A stretch of DNA of 64,000 nucleotides from Olsenella sp. An290. GTDB lineage: Bacteria > Actinomycetota > Coriobacteriia > Coriobacteriales > Atopobiaceae. Where the stretch lies: contig NZ_NFIU01000011.1 of the NCBI RefSeq assembly GCF_002159535.1, positions 1 to 64,000 on the forward strand. Direction: 5' to 3'. The notes under the pieces are model-generated. The model searched no databases and was not told where the DNA came from. It saw only the letters and a program-made list of their open reading frames with translations. The position numbers and the translations under genes are program-made. Shown here in pieces: positions 8,774-49,791 of the stretch (position 1 is its first letter; the number at the start of each line of letters is the position of its first letter).

Positions 8774-8800
8774 GTGACGAAGGGACAGTCCCTTCGTCAC
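8774..8800. repeat. REP-like 27-bp palindrome
   Basis: GTGACGAAGGGACAG with its near-perfect mirror, centred on GGGACAGTCCC. It starts one base after the tsaBD stop codon and is followed by ATTTT, so it may serve as a terminator hairpin. It is the most divergent member of the dispersed family that otherwise begins GTGCAA. Confidence 0.8.
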
Positions 8801-10199: not shown

Positions 10200-10260
10200 G
10201 TGCAAAAGTGCCTGTCCCCCTTGCACGCAGGCCGTGCAAGGGGGACAGGCACTTTCGCAC
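10200..10260. repeat. Pair of inverted REP units
   Basis: Two 27-bp units in opposite orientation (10200-10226 and 10234-10260), beginning GTGCAAAAGTGCC and GTGCAAGGGGGAC, with a 7-nt spacer. Together they can form one long hairpin, as in bacterial interspersed mosaic elements. The right unit ends two bases from the cyuA stop codon. Confidence 0.9.
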
Positions 10261-11565: not shown

Positions 11566-11630
11566 GTGCAAGGGGGACAGGCACTTTTGCACGCCCCGGA
11601 AGCGTGCAAAAGTGCCTGTCCCCCTTGCAC
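11566..11630. repeat. Pair of inverted REP units
   Basis: Units at 11566-11592 and 11604-11630, starting GTGCAAGGGGGACAG and GTGCAAAAGTGCC, separated by 11 nt. They lie in the divergent promoter region between cyuA and the ABC transporter genes, 17 nt upstream of the cyuA start, so they could influence cyuA expression. Confidence 0.9.
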
Positions 11631-11816
11631 GCTCACCCGTTACGGCGGTGTTTCCCAGTAGTCTATCAGCTCGCGGTCCTTCTCGACCCGCGGTATTCTT
11701 CTAGCGTGCGCGTAACTTTCTCGCATCGGGTGTGCCCGCTTGCAAGGGGGAGGGGAATGGGTCCCCTCCGGTTGCGTCGCGCGGAAGGGGATTACCAAAC
11801 AGGGAAAGGAACCACC

Positions 11817-13996: not shown

Positions 13997-14788
13997 ATGG
14001 CCGAGAAGAACGTCACGACCGCCGGCGCCGCCGGAGCCGGCGCCCGCTTCGCCGAGCCCATGGTCCGCATCGAGGGCCTGCAGAAGAGCTTCGGCGACCT
14101 GGAGGTCCTGCGCGACATCAACCTTGACGTCATGCCCGGCCAGGTGGTCACGATCATCGGCGCCTCCGGCTCCGGAAAGTCGACGCTTCTGCGCTGCATC
14201 AACCTGCTCGAGACGCCCGACGCCGGCCACGTGTGGTTCCACGGCGCCGACCTCGCGGCCGAGCACGTGGACGTGAACCGCCTGCGCGAGAAGATCGGCA
14301 TGGTGTTCCAGGGCTTCAACCTGTTCAACAACATGAACGTGCTCGACAACTGCACGCTTGCGCCCGTGACCCTAAAGAAGATGAAGAAGGCCGAGGCCGA
14401 GGAGGTCGCGATGCGCCACCTCGAGTCCGTGGGCCTTGCGGACTTCGCGCGCGCGGACGTGAACAACCTCTCCGGCGGCCAGAAGCAGCGCGTGGCCATC
14501 GCGCGCGCCCTCTGCATGCAGCCCGACCTCATGCTCTTCGACGAGCCCACCTCGGCGCTCGACCCGGAGATCGTGGGCGAGGTCCTGGAGGTTATGCGGC
14601 GCCTGGCCGCCGAGGGCATGACGATGGTCGTGGTCACGCACGAGATGGCCTTCGCCAAGAACGTCTCCGACGAGGTCGTCTTCATGGACAAGGGCGTCAT
14701 TGCCGAGAAGGGCGCGCCGTCCAAGATCTTCTCGGCACCCGAGCACCCGCGCACCCGCGAGTTCCTCGCCCGCTACCTCGAGGGGTAG
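13997..14788 (+). CDS. Amino-acid ABC transporter ATP-binding protein
   Basis: The GlnQ-type ATPase of the transporter (263 residues). Walker [11 protein letters not shown]-loop FQGFNLF, signature LSGGQKQR, Walker [13 protein letters not shown] and the switch histidine in VVVTHEM are all present. An extra N-terminal stretch of about 20 Ala/Gly-rich residues precedes the domain. The stop codon is followed after one base by a REP unit, then by the RAYT transposase gene. Confidence 0.95.
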
Positions 14789-14789
14789 C

Positions 14790-14816
14790 GTGCAAAGGGG
14801 ACAGGCACTTTTGCAC
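14790..14816. repeat. REP unit left of the RAYT gene
   Basis: A 27-bp palindrome starting GTGCAAAGGGGACAG. It begins one base after the ATPase stop (context GTAG-C-GTGC) and ends 59 nt before the RAYT start codon. Together with the unit at 15702 it brackets the transposase gene. Confidence 0.92.
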
Positions 14817-14875
14817 GCCGTCCTGGGGTCTGAAGGGGTATAACATCTCCCATCAACAAGGCGAGGGGAGGGGCT

Positions 14876-15700
14876 ATGCCCAGATTACCAAGACGTGTTG
14901 CAGAATCTGGCTTTTACCACGTAGTTCTCTACGCAAACGGTCGGCAGAACCTCTTTGAGGAAGACGCCGACCGTTTGGCTTTTCTTGACATGTTCGTGGA
15001 AGCTGCGCGCAAGCACGGCGTCAGCATTCTGGCATGGTGTCTCATGGCAAACCACATCCACCTGCTTCTCGAGGACCCGGACGACTGCCTGAGCGAGCTG
15101 ATGCGCTCCCTTGCCACGCGCTACGCCCAGCGCTTCAACAGGCGAGGGGGTCACGCAGGGCACGTGTTTCGAGGGCGGTTCTACAGCAGCCCCGTCGAGG
15201 GCGAGGCCTATCTCCTCGAGGCCATGCGCTACATCCACAACAACCCCGCGAAGGCCGGCATCTGCGCGGCGGAGGACTATCCGTGGAGCAGCTACCATGA
15301 GTACGCCGGCGCTCCCGACCGCACCGGCACCGGGCGCGCCGGCACCGGGCGCACCGGCGCTCCCGACCGCGCCGACACCGACCGCCCCGGCGTTCCCGAC
15401 CGCACCGACACCGGGCTGCTGCTCGAGATGCTCGGCGGCCGCGAGGCGTTCGTCAGGTTCTCGAGCTCTTCCGAGCGCGTCCGCTACCGCCCGCCGGCCC
15501 GGCCAAGGCTCGCCGACGCCGCGGCGGAGGAAGTCGCGCGCGAGGTTTTGGGCCCACTGACGGCATCGGAGCTCAAGGGCCAGGAGCAGGCCCGGCGCAA
15601 TGCGCTACTCTGTGAGTTGCGGGAGGCGGGGCTGTCCGTGAGGCAGATCGAGAGGCTCACGGGCATTGGCCGCGGCACCATCACAAGAGCAACGACGTAG
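14876..15700 (+). CDS. REP-associated tyrosine transposase (RAYT, Y1/HUH family)
   Basis: A 274-residue single-strand DNA transposase related to IS200 TnpA. The HUH metal site is MANHIHLLL (His60, His62). The catalytic tyrosine lies in RYIHNNP (Tyr119), followed by the family motif WSSY. Residues about 146-180 are a degenerate tandem repeat (APDRTGTGR/ADTDRPGV type), probably a flexible linker. The C terminus (about 225-274, LSVRQIERLTGIGRGTI) looks like a helix-turn-helix. RAYTs act on REP hairpins, and this gene is flanked on both sides by 27-bp REP units, with more across the window, so it is their likely mobiliser. RBS GAGGGGAGGGG precedes the ATG. Confidence 0.93.
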   Translation: MPRLPRRVAESGFYHVVLYANGRQNLFEEDADRLAFLDMFVEAARKHGVSILAWCLMANHIHLLLEDPDDCLSELMRSLATRYAQRFNRRGGHAGHVFRGRFYSSPVEGEAYLLEAMRYIHNNPAKAGICAAEDYPWSSYHEYAGAPDRTGTGRAGTGRTGAPDRADTDRPGVPDRTDTGLLLEMLGGREAFVRFSSSSERVRYRPPARPRLADAAAEEVAREVLGPLTASELKGQEQARRNALLCELREAGLSVRQIERLTGIGRGTITRATT

Positions 15701-15701
15701 C

Positions 15702-15728
15702 GTGCAAAGGTGCCTGTCACTTTTGCAC
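15702..15728. repeat. REP unit right of the RAYT gene
   Basis: A 27-bp palindrome starting GTGCAAAGGTGCCTG, one base after the RAYT stop (context GTAG-C-GTGC). It ends 21 nt before the nadE start codon. Confidence 0.92.
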
Positions 15729-15749: not shown

Positions 15750-17687
15750 ATGAGGGACGGGTTCGTCAAGGTGGCGGCGCTGACGCCGGAGGTCCGCGTG
15801 GCGGACGTGAGCTTCAACGTGGGCGCCTGCACGGCGGCGGTCCGCGAGGCGGCCGCGCAGGGAGCCGCCGTCATCGTTCTCCCGGAGCTCGCCATCACCG
15901 GCTACACCTGCGAGGACCTCTTCTGGCAGGACGCGCTCGTCCGCGCCGCCGACGCCGGCCTCGCCGACCTCGCCGCCCGCACGGCGGACCTTGCCGCCCT
16001 GATTCTCGTGGGCGTGCCCGTGCGCGCCAACGGAAAGCTCTACAACTGCGCCGCCGCCCTGAGCGCCGGGCGCCTGCTCGGCCTTGTCCCCAAGACGCAC
16101 ATCCCCACCTACCACGAGTTCTACGAGGGCCGCCACTTCGTTCCCGGCCCGGCGGACCCCGTGGCCGTCTCGTTTGCCGGCAAGAAGAACGTGCCCTTGG
16201 GCACCAACCTGCTCTTCTCGTGCGCGGAGCTCCCCGAGCTCGTGGTGGCCGCGGAGATCTGCGAGGACCTCTGGGCGCCTGACCAGCCCTCCGTCTCCCA
16301 CGCGCTCGCGGGCGCCACGCTGATCTGCAACCTCTCCGCCTCGAACGAGCTCGTCGGCAAGGCCGACTACCGCCGCGACCTCGTGCGCGGCCAGAGCGCC
16401 CGGCTCGTCTGCGGCTACCTCTACGCGAGCGCCGGCACCGGCGAGTCCACGCAGGACGTGGTCTACTCCGGGCACGACCTCGTGTGCGAGAACGGCCGCG
16501 CCCTCGCCGAGGCCGCGCCCTTCGGCTGCGGCCGCGCCATCTCGGAGGTCGACGTCCGGCACCTCGTCGCCGAGCGCACCCGCATGTCCACGTTTACGTG
16601 CGCGGCAGCGCCGGAGGAGGCGGGTTACGCGTGCCTGTCCTTCTCGCTCGGCGAGGGCGCCGCGGAGCGCGAGACCTCGCTCACCCGCTGGGTGGACCCG
16701 CACCCCTTTGTGCCGTCCGACGCGCACCGCCGCGCGGAGCGCTGCGAGGAGGTCTTTGCCATCCAGGCCCACGGCCTCGCCAAGCGCCTCGCGCACACGC
16801 ACTCGCGCCGTGCGGTGATCGGCCTCTCGGGCGGGCTGGACTCCACGCTCGCCCTGCTCGTGTCCGTGCGCGCCTTCGACCTGCTCGGCCTTGACCGCGC
16901 CGGCATCGTGGCCGTGACCATGCCCGGCTTTGGGACCACGGACCGCACCTACAACAACGCCTGCGAGCTCGCCCGCACCGTGGGGGCCGAGCTGCGGGAG
17001 ATCGGCATCGCCGCCGCCGTGCGCCAGCACTTTGCCGACATCGGCCACGACGAGGCCGTCCACGACGTCACCTACGAGAACTCCCAGGCCCGCGAGCGCA
17101 CGCAGATCCTCATGGACGTGGCCAACCAGGAGGGCGGCCTCGTCATCGGCACCGGCGACCTCTCCGAGCTGGCCCTTGGCTGGGCCACCTACAACGGCGA
17201 CCACATGTCCATGTATGCGGTCAACGCGAGCGTGCCCAAGACGCTGGTGCGCCACCTCGTGCGCTACGTGGCTGACACCTGCGGGGACGAGGCCGAGAAG
17301 AACGTCCTGCTGGACGTCCTTGACACCCCGGTCTCCCCGGAGCTTCTGCCCGCCACGGGCGACGGGCAGATCGCTCAGAAGACGGAGGACCTTGTGGGCC
17401 CCTACGAGCTGCACGACTTCTTCCTCTACGAGGTGCTGCGCCGCGGGACCAGCCCGGCCAAGGTCTACCGGCTTGCCCGCCATGCGCTGGGCGAGAAGTA
17501 CGACGACGAGACGATCCTCGCCTGGCTCAAGGTCTTCTACCGGCGCTACTTTGCCCAGCAGTTCAAGCGCAGCTGTCTGCCTGACGGCCCCAAGGTGGGC
17601 TCGGCGGCCGTGAGCCCGCGTGGCGACCTGCGCATGCCTTCGGACGCCTGCTCCGCCCTCTGGCTCTCCGAGCTCGAGAGCCTGTAG
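15750..17687 (+). CDS. nadE: Glutamine-dependent NAD+ synthetase
   Basis: Catalyses the last step of NAD synthesis, amidating deamido-NAD with ammonia channelled from glutamine (645 residues). The N-terminal nitrilase-type glutaminase has its Glu-Lys-Cys triad at Glu46 (LPELAITGY), Lys115 (VPKTHIP) and Cys171 (EICEDLW). The C-terminal synthetase has the PP-loop GLSGGLDST and GTGDLSELALGW. The ATG at 15750 follows GGAGGAGGC. A REP unit lies immediately upstream and a large REP palindrome begins one base after its stop. Confidence 0.96.
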   Translation: MRDGFVKVAALTPEVRVADVSFNVGACTAAVREAAAQGAAVIVLPELAITGYTCEDLFWQDALVRAADAGLADLAARTADLAALILVGVPVRANGKLYNCAAALSAGRLLGLVPKTHIPTYHEFYEGRHFVPGPADPVAVSFAGKKNVPLGTNLLFSCAELPELVVAAEICEDLWAPDQPSVSHALAGATLICNLSASNELVGKADYRRDLVRGQSARLVCGYLYASAGTGESTQDVVYSGHDLVCENGRALAEAAPFGCGRAISEVDVRHLVAERTRMSTFTCAAAPEEAGYACLSFSLGEGAAERETSLTRWVDPHPFVPSDAHRRAERCEEVFAIQAHGLAKRLAHTHSRRAVIGLSGGLDSTLALLVSVRAFDLLGLDRAGIVAVTMPGFGTTDRTYNNACELARTVGAELREIGIAAAVRQHFADIGHDEAVHDVTYENSQARERTQILMDVANQEGGLVIGTGDLSELALGWATYNGDHMSMYAVNASVPKTLVRHLVRYVADTCGDEAEKNVLLDVLDTPVSPELLPATGDGQIAQKTEDLVGPYELHDFFLYEVLRRGTSPAKVYRLARHALGEKYDDETILAWLKVFYRRYFAQQFKRSCLPDGPKVGSAAVSPRGDLRMPSDACSALWLSELESL

Positions 17688-17688
17688 C

Positions 17689-17778
17689 GTGCAAGGGGGC
17701 GTGCAAGGGGGACAGTCACTTTTGCACGCATGGGGCGGCGTGCAAAAGTGACTGTCCCCCTTGCACGCCCCCTTGCAC
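17689..17778. repeat. Large REP palindrome (two units plus half-units)
   Basis: Full units at 17701-17727 and 17740-17766 in opposite orientation, each extended outward by a half-unit (GTGCAAGGGGGC 17689-17700, mirrored at 17767-17778). The 90-bp block is nearly a perfect palindrome. It separates convergent genes: nadE on the left ends GTAG-C, and the broken gene on the right ends GTAG-GC when read on its own strand. It may act as a bidirectional terminator. Confidence 0.92.
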
Positions 17779-18417: not shown

Positions 18418-18545
18418 AAAAGGTTGGGTACTTTTTTGAGGGACCGTCGAGTAGCCCTCTGATCGGGCAGGCTCCTGAGCTGGTGTTTATCAGAATAGAA
18501 ACAAAATCGTACTCAGGGGTCCCGTGAAAAAGTACCCAACCTTTT
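18418..18545. mobile_element. Miniature inverted-repeat element, copy 1
   Basis: A perfect 19-bp terminal inverted repeat, AAAAGGTTGGGTACTTTTT (18418-18436) and its complement at 18527-18545, encloses about 90 bp without a gene. A related copy lies at 36531-36648. Both share TACTCAGGGG next to the right arm. The element lies between two paralogous genes and 60 nt upstream of the start of the broken one. No target duplication was recognised, and no matching transposase is present in the window. Confidence 0.65.
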
Positions 18546-19692: not shown

Positions 19693-21716
<2,024 letters not shown>

Positions 21717-34945: not shown

Positions 34946-34972
34946 GTGCAAAGGGGACAGGCACCTTTGCAC
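34946..34972. repeat. REP unit after malic enzyme
   Basis: A 27-bp palindrome starting GTGCAAAGGGGACAG directly after the malic-enzyme TAG, with no gap. Confidence 0.92.
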
Positions 34973-49735: not shown

Positions 49736-49791
49736 GTGCAAAGGGGACAGTCACTTTTGCACGCGTGCAAAAGTGACTGTCCCCTTTGCAC
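49736..49791. repeat. Pair of inverted REP units between csoR and copA
   Basis: Units at 49736-49762 (GTGCAAAGGGGACAG start) and 49765-49791 (GTGCAAAAGTGACTG start), only 2 nt apart, forming a nearly continuous palindrome. The right unit ends three bases from the csoR stop codon; the left one is 13 nt from the copA start codon. Confidence 0.92.

Follow-up and report, generated by a model that had tools for sequence, protein, structure and literature searches.

We observed that a gene for a HUH/Y1 transposase, related to the repetitive extragenic palindromic (REP) sequence-associated tyrosine transposases (RAYTs), is flanked by two hairpin-forming repeat units in a 64,000-nucleotide stretch of Olsenella sp. 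An290 (contig NZ_NFIU01000011.1, positions 1 to 64,000), hereafter called the window. Comparison of this genome with its relatives makes it probable that the enzyme, a nuclease-ligase of the TIRYT kind encoded at a fixed locus, acts in trans on cognate hairpins of ∼27–35 bp, giving rise to new copies and converting some resident ones in place. The comparison showed that transposase clades pair with particular hairpin arms, that copy number follows the gene, that the outer stem changes in a compensatory manner around a fixed GGGGACAG core, that the two units are identical in most doublets, and that some slots are common to genomes with differing hairpin types. The sequences support the transposase and the hairpins as a cognate pair, and from the uniformity of the units we infer that the system may be active at present.

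The source genome belongs to a genus that includes Thermophilibacter. We compared 31 genomes of this genus, namely our own (G000) and 30 genus mates, of which 27 have a RAYT match. In ∼19 genomes, own included, the transposase gene lies between a conserved left neighbour (13997..14788, + strand), which we take from its sequence character to be an ABC transporter ATPase gene, and a conserved right neighbour (15750..17687, + strand), presumably an NAD synthetase-like gene. The orthologous hairpins flanking the gene keep GGGGACAG or near variants of it, and the outer stem varies by clade. The outer stems are of type A (GTGCAAA), B (TTGACAA/G), C (TTCAAAA or TCCAAAA), D (GTCAAAA), E (GATACGAA or GTTACGAA) and F (GATACAAA). 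Among 11 distinct upstream units, both sides had changed in 7 of the 12 stem pairs, and the stem covariation score was 0.50 compared to 0.18 for shuffled and ≤0.13 for slid controls; these rows were picked by hand, leaving out G015, which has the same type as G008, and G013, which has a hybrid unit. Other RAYT paralogues of the genus carry other arms. An inverted repeat with a score of at least 16 was present between the two flanks at 65 of 71 RAYT loci. Among 80 named loci, mostly from Coriobacteriia and some from Bacillota, 77 had enough flanking sequence; 59 of these had the repeat and 46 the repeat together with the core, compared to 3 for mispaired flanks (73 pairs, derived from the mean).

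The tree of the local RAYTs is in conflict with that of three neighbouring genes, G011 and G018 carrying type A among type C relatives. Therefore, the locus seems to have undergone allele swaps. After this inferred swap G018 holds both types, 57 units being A and 44 C/D. Its type A transposase gene is interrupted, the frame ending at 140 amino acids, and that of G025 is in pieces (L032, L049), unless these are assembly errors.

Next, we consider copy numbers. Covariance model R1 gave 159 hits in our own 2.15 Mb genome (E 0.01), which provides the genome-wide count that the first-pass annotation of this DNA had proposed as a check. Four arm patterns were counted in 60 relatives, and the reversed control gave 0 or 1 per genome and strand. 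A genome was called a holder, by our own assignment, if the type occurs beside a RAYT; the tests are over the 31 genus genomes, which are related and hence non-independent. Borderline holders were counted in: G007 as H (one adjacent unit), G029 as E (a relic), and G025 and G018 as A (broken genes). Type A copies numbered 14–120 in 7 holders compared to 0–10 in the 24 others (p = 2.3e-5), and type H copies 5–148 in 6 holders compared to 0–5 in 25 others (p = 7.5e-6). The corresponding ranges were 21–113 in 7 holders and 0–44 in 24 others for type C/D (p = 9.2e-5), and 28–155 in 5 holders and 0–92 in 26 others for type E (p = 0.0012). The number of model hits correlated with −log10 of the best RAYT E-value (Spearman 0.77, 31 genomes). 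The RAYT-less genomes G004, G019 and G026 had 6, 12 and 0 model hits, respectively, as against the 159 of our own, and neither the gene nor a hairpin of the family was found in them between the two neighbour genes. G029 retains only the C-terminal part of the gene at the locus and has 6 model hits. The empty gap between the ABC ATPase and NadE genes in G004 and G026 (L175, L179) contains unrelated inverted repeats that are perfect over arms of 28 and 25 nt.

Within the window, the 27-bp hairpin on each side of the gene and all 14 positions listed by the first-pass annotation were confirmed in the letters. The pattern GTGCAAAGGGGACAGTCACTTTTGCAC at up to 3 mismatches gave 13 rows for 12 distinct places (20032 matched on both strands), compared to 0 in 100 dinucleotide shuffles. 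The remaining units, 8774 and 19992, were recovered by a palindrome scan, which returned 9 units and 2 unrelated GC-rich palindromes, compared to 6 hits in 20 first-order Markov resamplings. The upstream flanking unit (14790..14816, + strand, type A) has the core GGGGACAGGCAC and lies 1 base past the ABC ATPase stop codon; the downstream one (15702..15728, − strand, type A) reads GACAGGCAC on the minus strand and lies 1 base past the transposase stop codon. The dispersed units include five close inverted pairs, as had been described. In four of them the units are 11566..11592 (+, type A) and 11604..11630 (−), 17701..17727 (+, type A, within a longer palindrome at ∼17689–17778) and 17740..17766 (−), 49736..49762 (+, consensus type A) and 49765..49791 (−), each with partners of identical 27-mers, and 19992..20018 (arms GTGGAAA) and 20032..20058 (arms GTGCAAA), both perfect palindromes without an assigned strand upstream of a groEL-like gene (start 20079). 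The type A pair 10200..10226 (−) and 10234..10260 (+) is oriented in reverse order, unlike the other window pairs. The place of 11566 is a slot with other types in many genus mates. In addition, there is a perfect palindrome with other arms, GTGACGAA, at 8774..8800 (no strand assigned), and a single unit at 34946..34972 (+), directly 3′ of a TAG. The claim that the units start with GTGCAA and carry a GGGGAC or GTCCCC core held for most of them, but the core of 15702 is GGTGCCTGTC and the arms of 8774 are GTGACGAA. The units at 8774, 14790, 15702 and 34946 are placed 0–1 base 3′ of a stop codon. The leader of the groEL-like gene, where the hairpins at 19992–20058 are located, is occupied in many genus genomes, and they may affect its expression. 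A Corio-PBP RNA (RF02945, 88.5 bits) at 11706–11788 lies ∼75 bases from the doublet 11566–11630.

Genome-wide, the core GGGGACAGNCNC had 99 matches compared to 3 for the reversed pattern. We read 88 units, comprising 29 close doublets and 30 singles, in ∼463 kb of our own genome, that is, the window and 20 stretches picked for holding units and hence not random; two of 90 rows were left out as chance GC-rich matches. Two identical 27-mers were present in 22 of the 29 doublets (2.0 expected; maximum of 7 in 5000 shuffles), and the G-rich arm points outward in 25 of 29. The spacers are 1–37 nt long and mutually unrelated by eye in all 29. Taken with the identical units, these spacers suggest that units arise, or get corrected, pairwise at each site, and copying of whole doublets seems disfavoured as the source of matching units. 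Units also gather near the gene in two genomes. On the G007 contig, 9 of 36 type A slots are within 25 kb of it (1.4 expected), a radius picked after the list was seen, and 5 are within 15 kb (0.85 expected); our own genome has 9 units in 30 kb (2.2 expected). Some units face each other at ∼530–650 bp, as if enclosing a segment (L076 5962/6493; G007:C1:395929/396576).

We then used the term slot for a homologous place in different genomes. Of the window's seven non-flanking places, just three (11566, 17701 and 19992) were comparable with more than nine other genomes. At 11566 (24 genomes with our own), a hairpin was present in 15 of 16 genomes with a RAYT at the locus and in 2 of 8 without (Fisher p = 0.0013). 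The corresponding fractions at 19992 (26 genomes with our own) were 16/17 and 1/9 (Fisher p = 4.9e-5), counting as occupied G016 and G018, where the hairpins were missed by the slot detector and are visible in the letters. As the genomes are related, these p values are a guide only. Slot 17701 (12 genomes with our own) was occupied in 7 of 7 genomes with a RAYT and empty in G002, G003 and G010, and G019 and G029 had hairpins of other kinds. Identical REP positions in relatives without a RAYT gene had been named by the first-pass annotation as a finding that would speak against its proposal. This was generally not the case: slots 11566 and 19992 were hairpin-free in G004, G019 and G026 where readable (G026 was readable only at 19992). 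An exception is the RAYT-less G019, whose slot 17701 is occupied by a hairpin, albeit one with other arms.

Some slots hold differing types. Slot 11566 was found with types A, B, C, D, E and a GAGACAAA type, all ending at or a few bases before CACCCGTTACGG (∼16 in G011). At 19992, the hairpin is followed by ATCGGAAAGG or TCGGAAAGG if it is of type A, type E or a GATGAAAA type, and by a shortened GGAAAGG if it is of type D; type C sits there in another flank haplotype. In G016 and G018, whose aligned part is 81 kb (mean identity 92.5 and 94.8%), there were 9 non-flanking slots. Eight were shared; the type agreed in 5 of them, and 3 were retyped (A for GATGAAAA, GATGAAAA for C, and a C-like hybrid for GATGAAAA), and none was cleanly empty. 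G016 unit 13893 has no counterpart because G018 lacks ∼0.75 kb between 13893 and 14675. The strict detector found 7 of these slots, all shared, and a looser run added the shared slot 85690/46022 and G016 unit 13893. Retyped slots were also found in the pairs G005/G016, G006/G022 and G006/G007, alongside empty ones. The type C units 13893 and 14675 on G016:C11 (L327), ∼0.78 kb apart, correspond to one unit, G018:C7:80436, possibly through a deletion or insertion by inter-unit recombination.

The detectors used for these comparisons differed in stringency. A first general hairpin detector was dropped, its reversed control being at about the level of the signal; a tighter one gave controls of 14–20 in 376–463 kb. 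Controls of the stricter slot detectors were 0–2 for distant pairs, 0 for G016/G018 and 0–6 for other pairs, and those of the looser G016/G018 run were 0–2 at its higher threshold. A strict search for hybrid hairpins found 0, and a looser one gave 35 of 141 with different arms; many of the latter were near-variants or shared by descent, so this result was not relied on. In one G022 unit, D arms enclose a core that is symmetric and A-like.

Several observations weigh against the proposal of a cognate enzyme that spreads and converts its hairpins. C/D units occur without such a RAYT in G018 (44) and G025 (35), and E units in G010 (92), G005 (45), G001 (34) and G023 (30); we read these surplus units as probable relics or as due to unsampled RAYTs. 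The cognate assignment is incomplete and the RAYTs are only partly sampled. G021 has RAYT matches elsewhere but 0 model hits, and G023 has a RAYT yet is empty at slots 11566 and 19992. At 19992 the slot type and the local RAYT agree only in part: type C is present in G008, G013, G015 and G025 with RAYT types B, E, B and A, respectively, the GATGAAAA type in G016 and G018, and type D in G006, which has a type C RAYT. For slot 10200, 9 genomes yielded no convincing counterpart; 8774, 34946 and 49736 were comparable in just 1, 2 and 0 genomes, respectively. Clean empty sites exist, for example, that of G006 149908 in G007. Distant pairs leave many slots unshared, G006 having a unit at 3 of 10 G022 slots and 3 of 12 G007 slots, and G007 at 3 of 9 G006 slots and 7 of 12 G022 slots; these counts are for slots with both flanks found, include the two flanking units among the shared ones, and come from a detector that misses some. 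Clustering near the gene is not general either, since the type H RAYT of G022 has just its two flanking units within 15 kb. Finally, the tree behind the swapped alleles was built from three genes close to the locus, with support values not shown.

The following mechanism is proposed. A single-strand HUH/Y1 nuclease-ligase, encoded between two hairpins, would act in trans on the scattered cognate family. It would bind the folded single strand of a hairpin, the catalytic domain reading the clade-specific outer stem and the C-terminal helix-turn-helix-like domain perhaps the shared core, and cut near the hairpin foot via Y119. The strand would then be joined either at a fresh site, adding a copy to the family, or in exchange for a hairpin already present, which would change some existing copies to another type in place. 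As a guess, the second arm, and the second unit of a doublet, might be completed by hairpin-templated copying, which would explain both symmetries. Copies must sometimes be inserted or lost because empty sites exist. A stronger version, which we put forward only tentatively, is that the transposase mainly homogenises: it would recognise resident hairpins by their GGGGACAG core and replace them arm by arm with its own type, and the family would be rewritten in concert, at the positions it already occupies, after an allele takeover.

The protein is in accordance with such an enzyme. The open reading frame (14876..15700, + strand) is intact, with an ATG start and 0 internal stops, and was assigned to the RAYTs (TIRYT/subclass 2.1-like) from the reading frame, Pfam, alignment and the structure model. 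The 274-residue HUH transposase with HIH and RYIHNNP motifs that had been annotated was borne out by this frame and an alignment of 60 sequences. It comprises a catalytic domain (residues ∼1–147), a low-complexity linker (∼149–171) and a C-terminal helical, helix-turn-helix (HTH)-like domain. The HUH motif is H60-I61-H62 and the tyrosine motif Y119-I-H-N-N-P124; all 60 sequences share H62, Y119, N123 and P124, and H60 is nearly invariant. Pfam Y1_Tnp matched with an E-value of 1.1e-15. The model built from the aligned sequences had a predicted local distance difference test (pLDDT) score of 88.6, and its best PDB match was 4er8, the E. coli TnpA-REP with a REP hairpin (Z 17.7, 161 residues, 2.8 Å). 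The C-terminal domain is conserved and helical in models, with the consensus AGLSVRQIERLTGIGRxTI in the 60 sequences. Weak Pfam HTH matches were found in it at E 0.1 (HTH_31 in 12/60, HTH_23 in 4/60 and HTH_28 in 1/60), and Bac_DnaA_C was absent among the Pfam matches listed for the 60 members at this threshold. A fold search with this domain gave a best Z of 6.5 (ParB-like 6.3, DnaA 5.0), none above background. The linker is repeat-expanded (window 15320–15400), and our own protein exceeds its closest relatives by 27 residues. Our own genome encodes a second RAYT homologue (L059, G000:C23:130746), which has 62% identity in the catalytic domain and different flanking repeats.

We think that the shared slots are best explained by in-place retyping; two rivals are serious. 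It is well possible that the slots only reflect ordinary insertion and loss, in which a few favoured gaps, past stop codons or in leaders, are hit again at nearly the same base. The many slots unshared between distant species, the clean empty sites, the emptiness of slot P in G006 and the four window units 0–1 base past a stop codon fit with this. However, one boundary is base-identical between types at slots P, Q and R, the 11566 boundary stays within a few bases in most genomes (the ∼16 of G011 apart), and none of the 9 G016/G018 slots is cleanly empty. Also, the flank at 19992 (ATCGGAAAGG, TCGGAAAGG or, for D, GGAAAGG) is common to four types and was not seen in the empty species, though that of G021 is similar. 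We consider it somewhat unlikely that short homologous recombination in the flanking genes imported foreign hairpin slots from other species, the transposase allele being swapped likewise. The conflict between the RAYT and neighbour-gene trees and the identity of the slot P hairpin of G018 with that of G000 are consistent with such an exchange. Exchange would transfer types among genomes but could not create differing types at one homologous place; the left flanks of P, Q and R are 91–97% identical, so the exchanged tracts would need to be very short, and genome-wide copy number follows type.

The remaining alternatives concern the nature of the hairpins and of the gene. Hairpin-forming units past stop codons or before groEL could be terminators or mRNA-stabilising structures under selection, which the transposase gene merely adjoins. 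This is very unlikely, as it leaves unexplained the many copies of one arm sequence, their match to the transposase clade and the few units in RAYT-less genomes. That an ordinary insertion sequence moves whole between its inverted repeats is highly improbable: the gene does lie between inverted repeats and many genomes have several homologues, but it occupies the same locus in the ∼19 genomes mentioned, and the second homologue of our own genome, with just 62% identity, is no recent copy. We give equally little weight to a canonical GTAG REP/RAYT system of the subclass 2.2 or 2.5 type. The closest solved structure is E. coli TnpA-REP, and NF047646, the NCBIfam model of REP-associated tyrosine transposases, was matched by 60/60 aligned members at E 0.001; our own protein, the only one to which the cut-off of 80 was applied, scored 77.5 bits and is thus under it. 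GTAGC precedes both flanking units, and GTAG was tried as a guide; this is the stop-codon context, and a family-wide rule failed. Canonical RAYT/REP systems (subclasses 2.2, 2.4, 2.5, 2.7 and 2.8) have GT[AG]G at the 5′ foot of the hairpin; here it was present within 8 nt 5′ of 4 of the 88 units, two being these stop-codon cases, and 3 further units have the complement in the 8 nt on their 3′ side. According to PMC6006769, W94, Q95, E100, H101 and R104 are discussed as GTAG readers in E. coli. In the 4er8 alignment they correspond to F98, R99, S104, S105 and E108 here; F98 and S104 are invariant in the 60 members, and at the Q95 position the consensus retains Q. Most GTAG-reading residues are thus replaced, and the units are not strict REPs, so that what is known of E. 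coli-type RAYT/REP systems is not directly transferable. The “REP/RAYT” label of the first-pass annotation therefore stands for a cognate transposase–hairpin pair across the 31 genomes, but not for strict REPs.

By description and motifs, the gene fits with TIRYT, close to RAYT subclass 2.1/group 1. The RAYT groups of Bertels et al. 2017 are cited as given in PMC6006769. TIRYTs, or TIRtrons, are RAYT-like tyrosine transposases between inverted repeats with GGGGWSAS, and the linked repeat families, often in dimers or clusters, were described in S. maltophilia and K. versatilis, one of them being self-complementary (Di Nocera et al. 2013, PMC3733652). Our system likewise has a Y1_Tnp core with HuH and Y---NP, and flanking inverted repeats with GGGGWSAS, here as GGGGACAG at 14797 and an inverted match at 15702, where the downstream copy carries GGTGCCTGTC instead. 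It differs from the published TIRYTs in being from Coriobacteriia, in its clade-specific outer stems, followed over orthologous loci and slots, and in having ∼159 model hits in 2.15 Mb (compared with PMC3733652). Of 26 TIRYTs, 20 fall in subclass 2.1, the second largest subclass (14.9% of strains; PMC6006769). This subclass/RAYT group 1 also has Y---NP, a long protein with a C-terminal extension, likened to HTH by its authors, and an altered GTAG-reading region, but no REP-like sequences were found in that survey beside subclass 2.1 genes (Quentin et al. 2018, PMC6006769), whereas flanking inverted repeats were present at 65 of our 71 loci.

Orthologous RAYTs with different REP classes, several classes per genome and relics are also features of the orthoswitch in Pseudomonas and Stenotrophomonas (Nunvar et al. 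2013, PMC3686654). There, the REP class switches beside orthologous RAYTs, new copies spread while the old ones remain in place and decay; in our genomes, differing types are in addition found in the same slots, and the GT[AG]G word is a feature of the Pseudomonas and Stenotrophomonas REPs. REPINs of P. fluorescens SBW25 (Bertels and Rainey 2011, PMC3116915) are similar in being inverted doublets with matching units, as are 22 of our 29. The seemingly unrelated spacers of 1–37 nt, in contrast to REPINs, make a doublet here look unlike one unit copied together with its spacer. E. coli TnpA-REP (4er8; Corneloup et al. 2021, PMC8266576) has a similar catalytic fold, our system differing by its extra C-terminal domain and by having no GTAG word. 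We met no description of in-place hairpin retyping in a limited collection of excerpted literature on RAYT/REP.

These results bear on how REP-like repeats spread and why the copies within a genome look alike. The shared slots allow copy-and-insert to be told from in-place conversion, and the genus, whose members carry six or more arm types at one locus, offers ready-made cognate and non-cognate pairs for studying recognition. Subclass 2.1 transposases were reported to lack a REP-like partner (PMC6006769); here, a partner becomes plain once GTAG is not required in the search.

Other dispersed elements were also observed. A ∼128-bp stretch of the window (18418–18545) with perfect 19-nt inverted ends, AAAAGGTTGGGTACTTTTT, has a second copy in our own genome and a related one in G006, and looks like a separate dispersed element. 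In G022, G006 and G007 there is a dispersed element of ∼140 bp with 23-nt inverted ends, AATGCCCCTTGTTGGTCAGCGAC, at a spacing of 96–97. A stretch of similar length (L343 4914–5054), which is a candidate only for this AATGCCCCTTGTTGGTCAGCGAC element, has dozens of ∼73–92% matches in G016 and G005.

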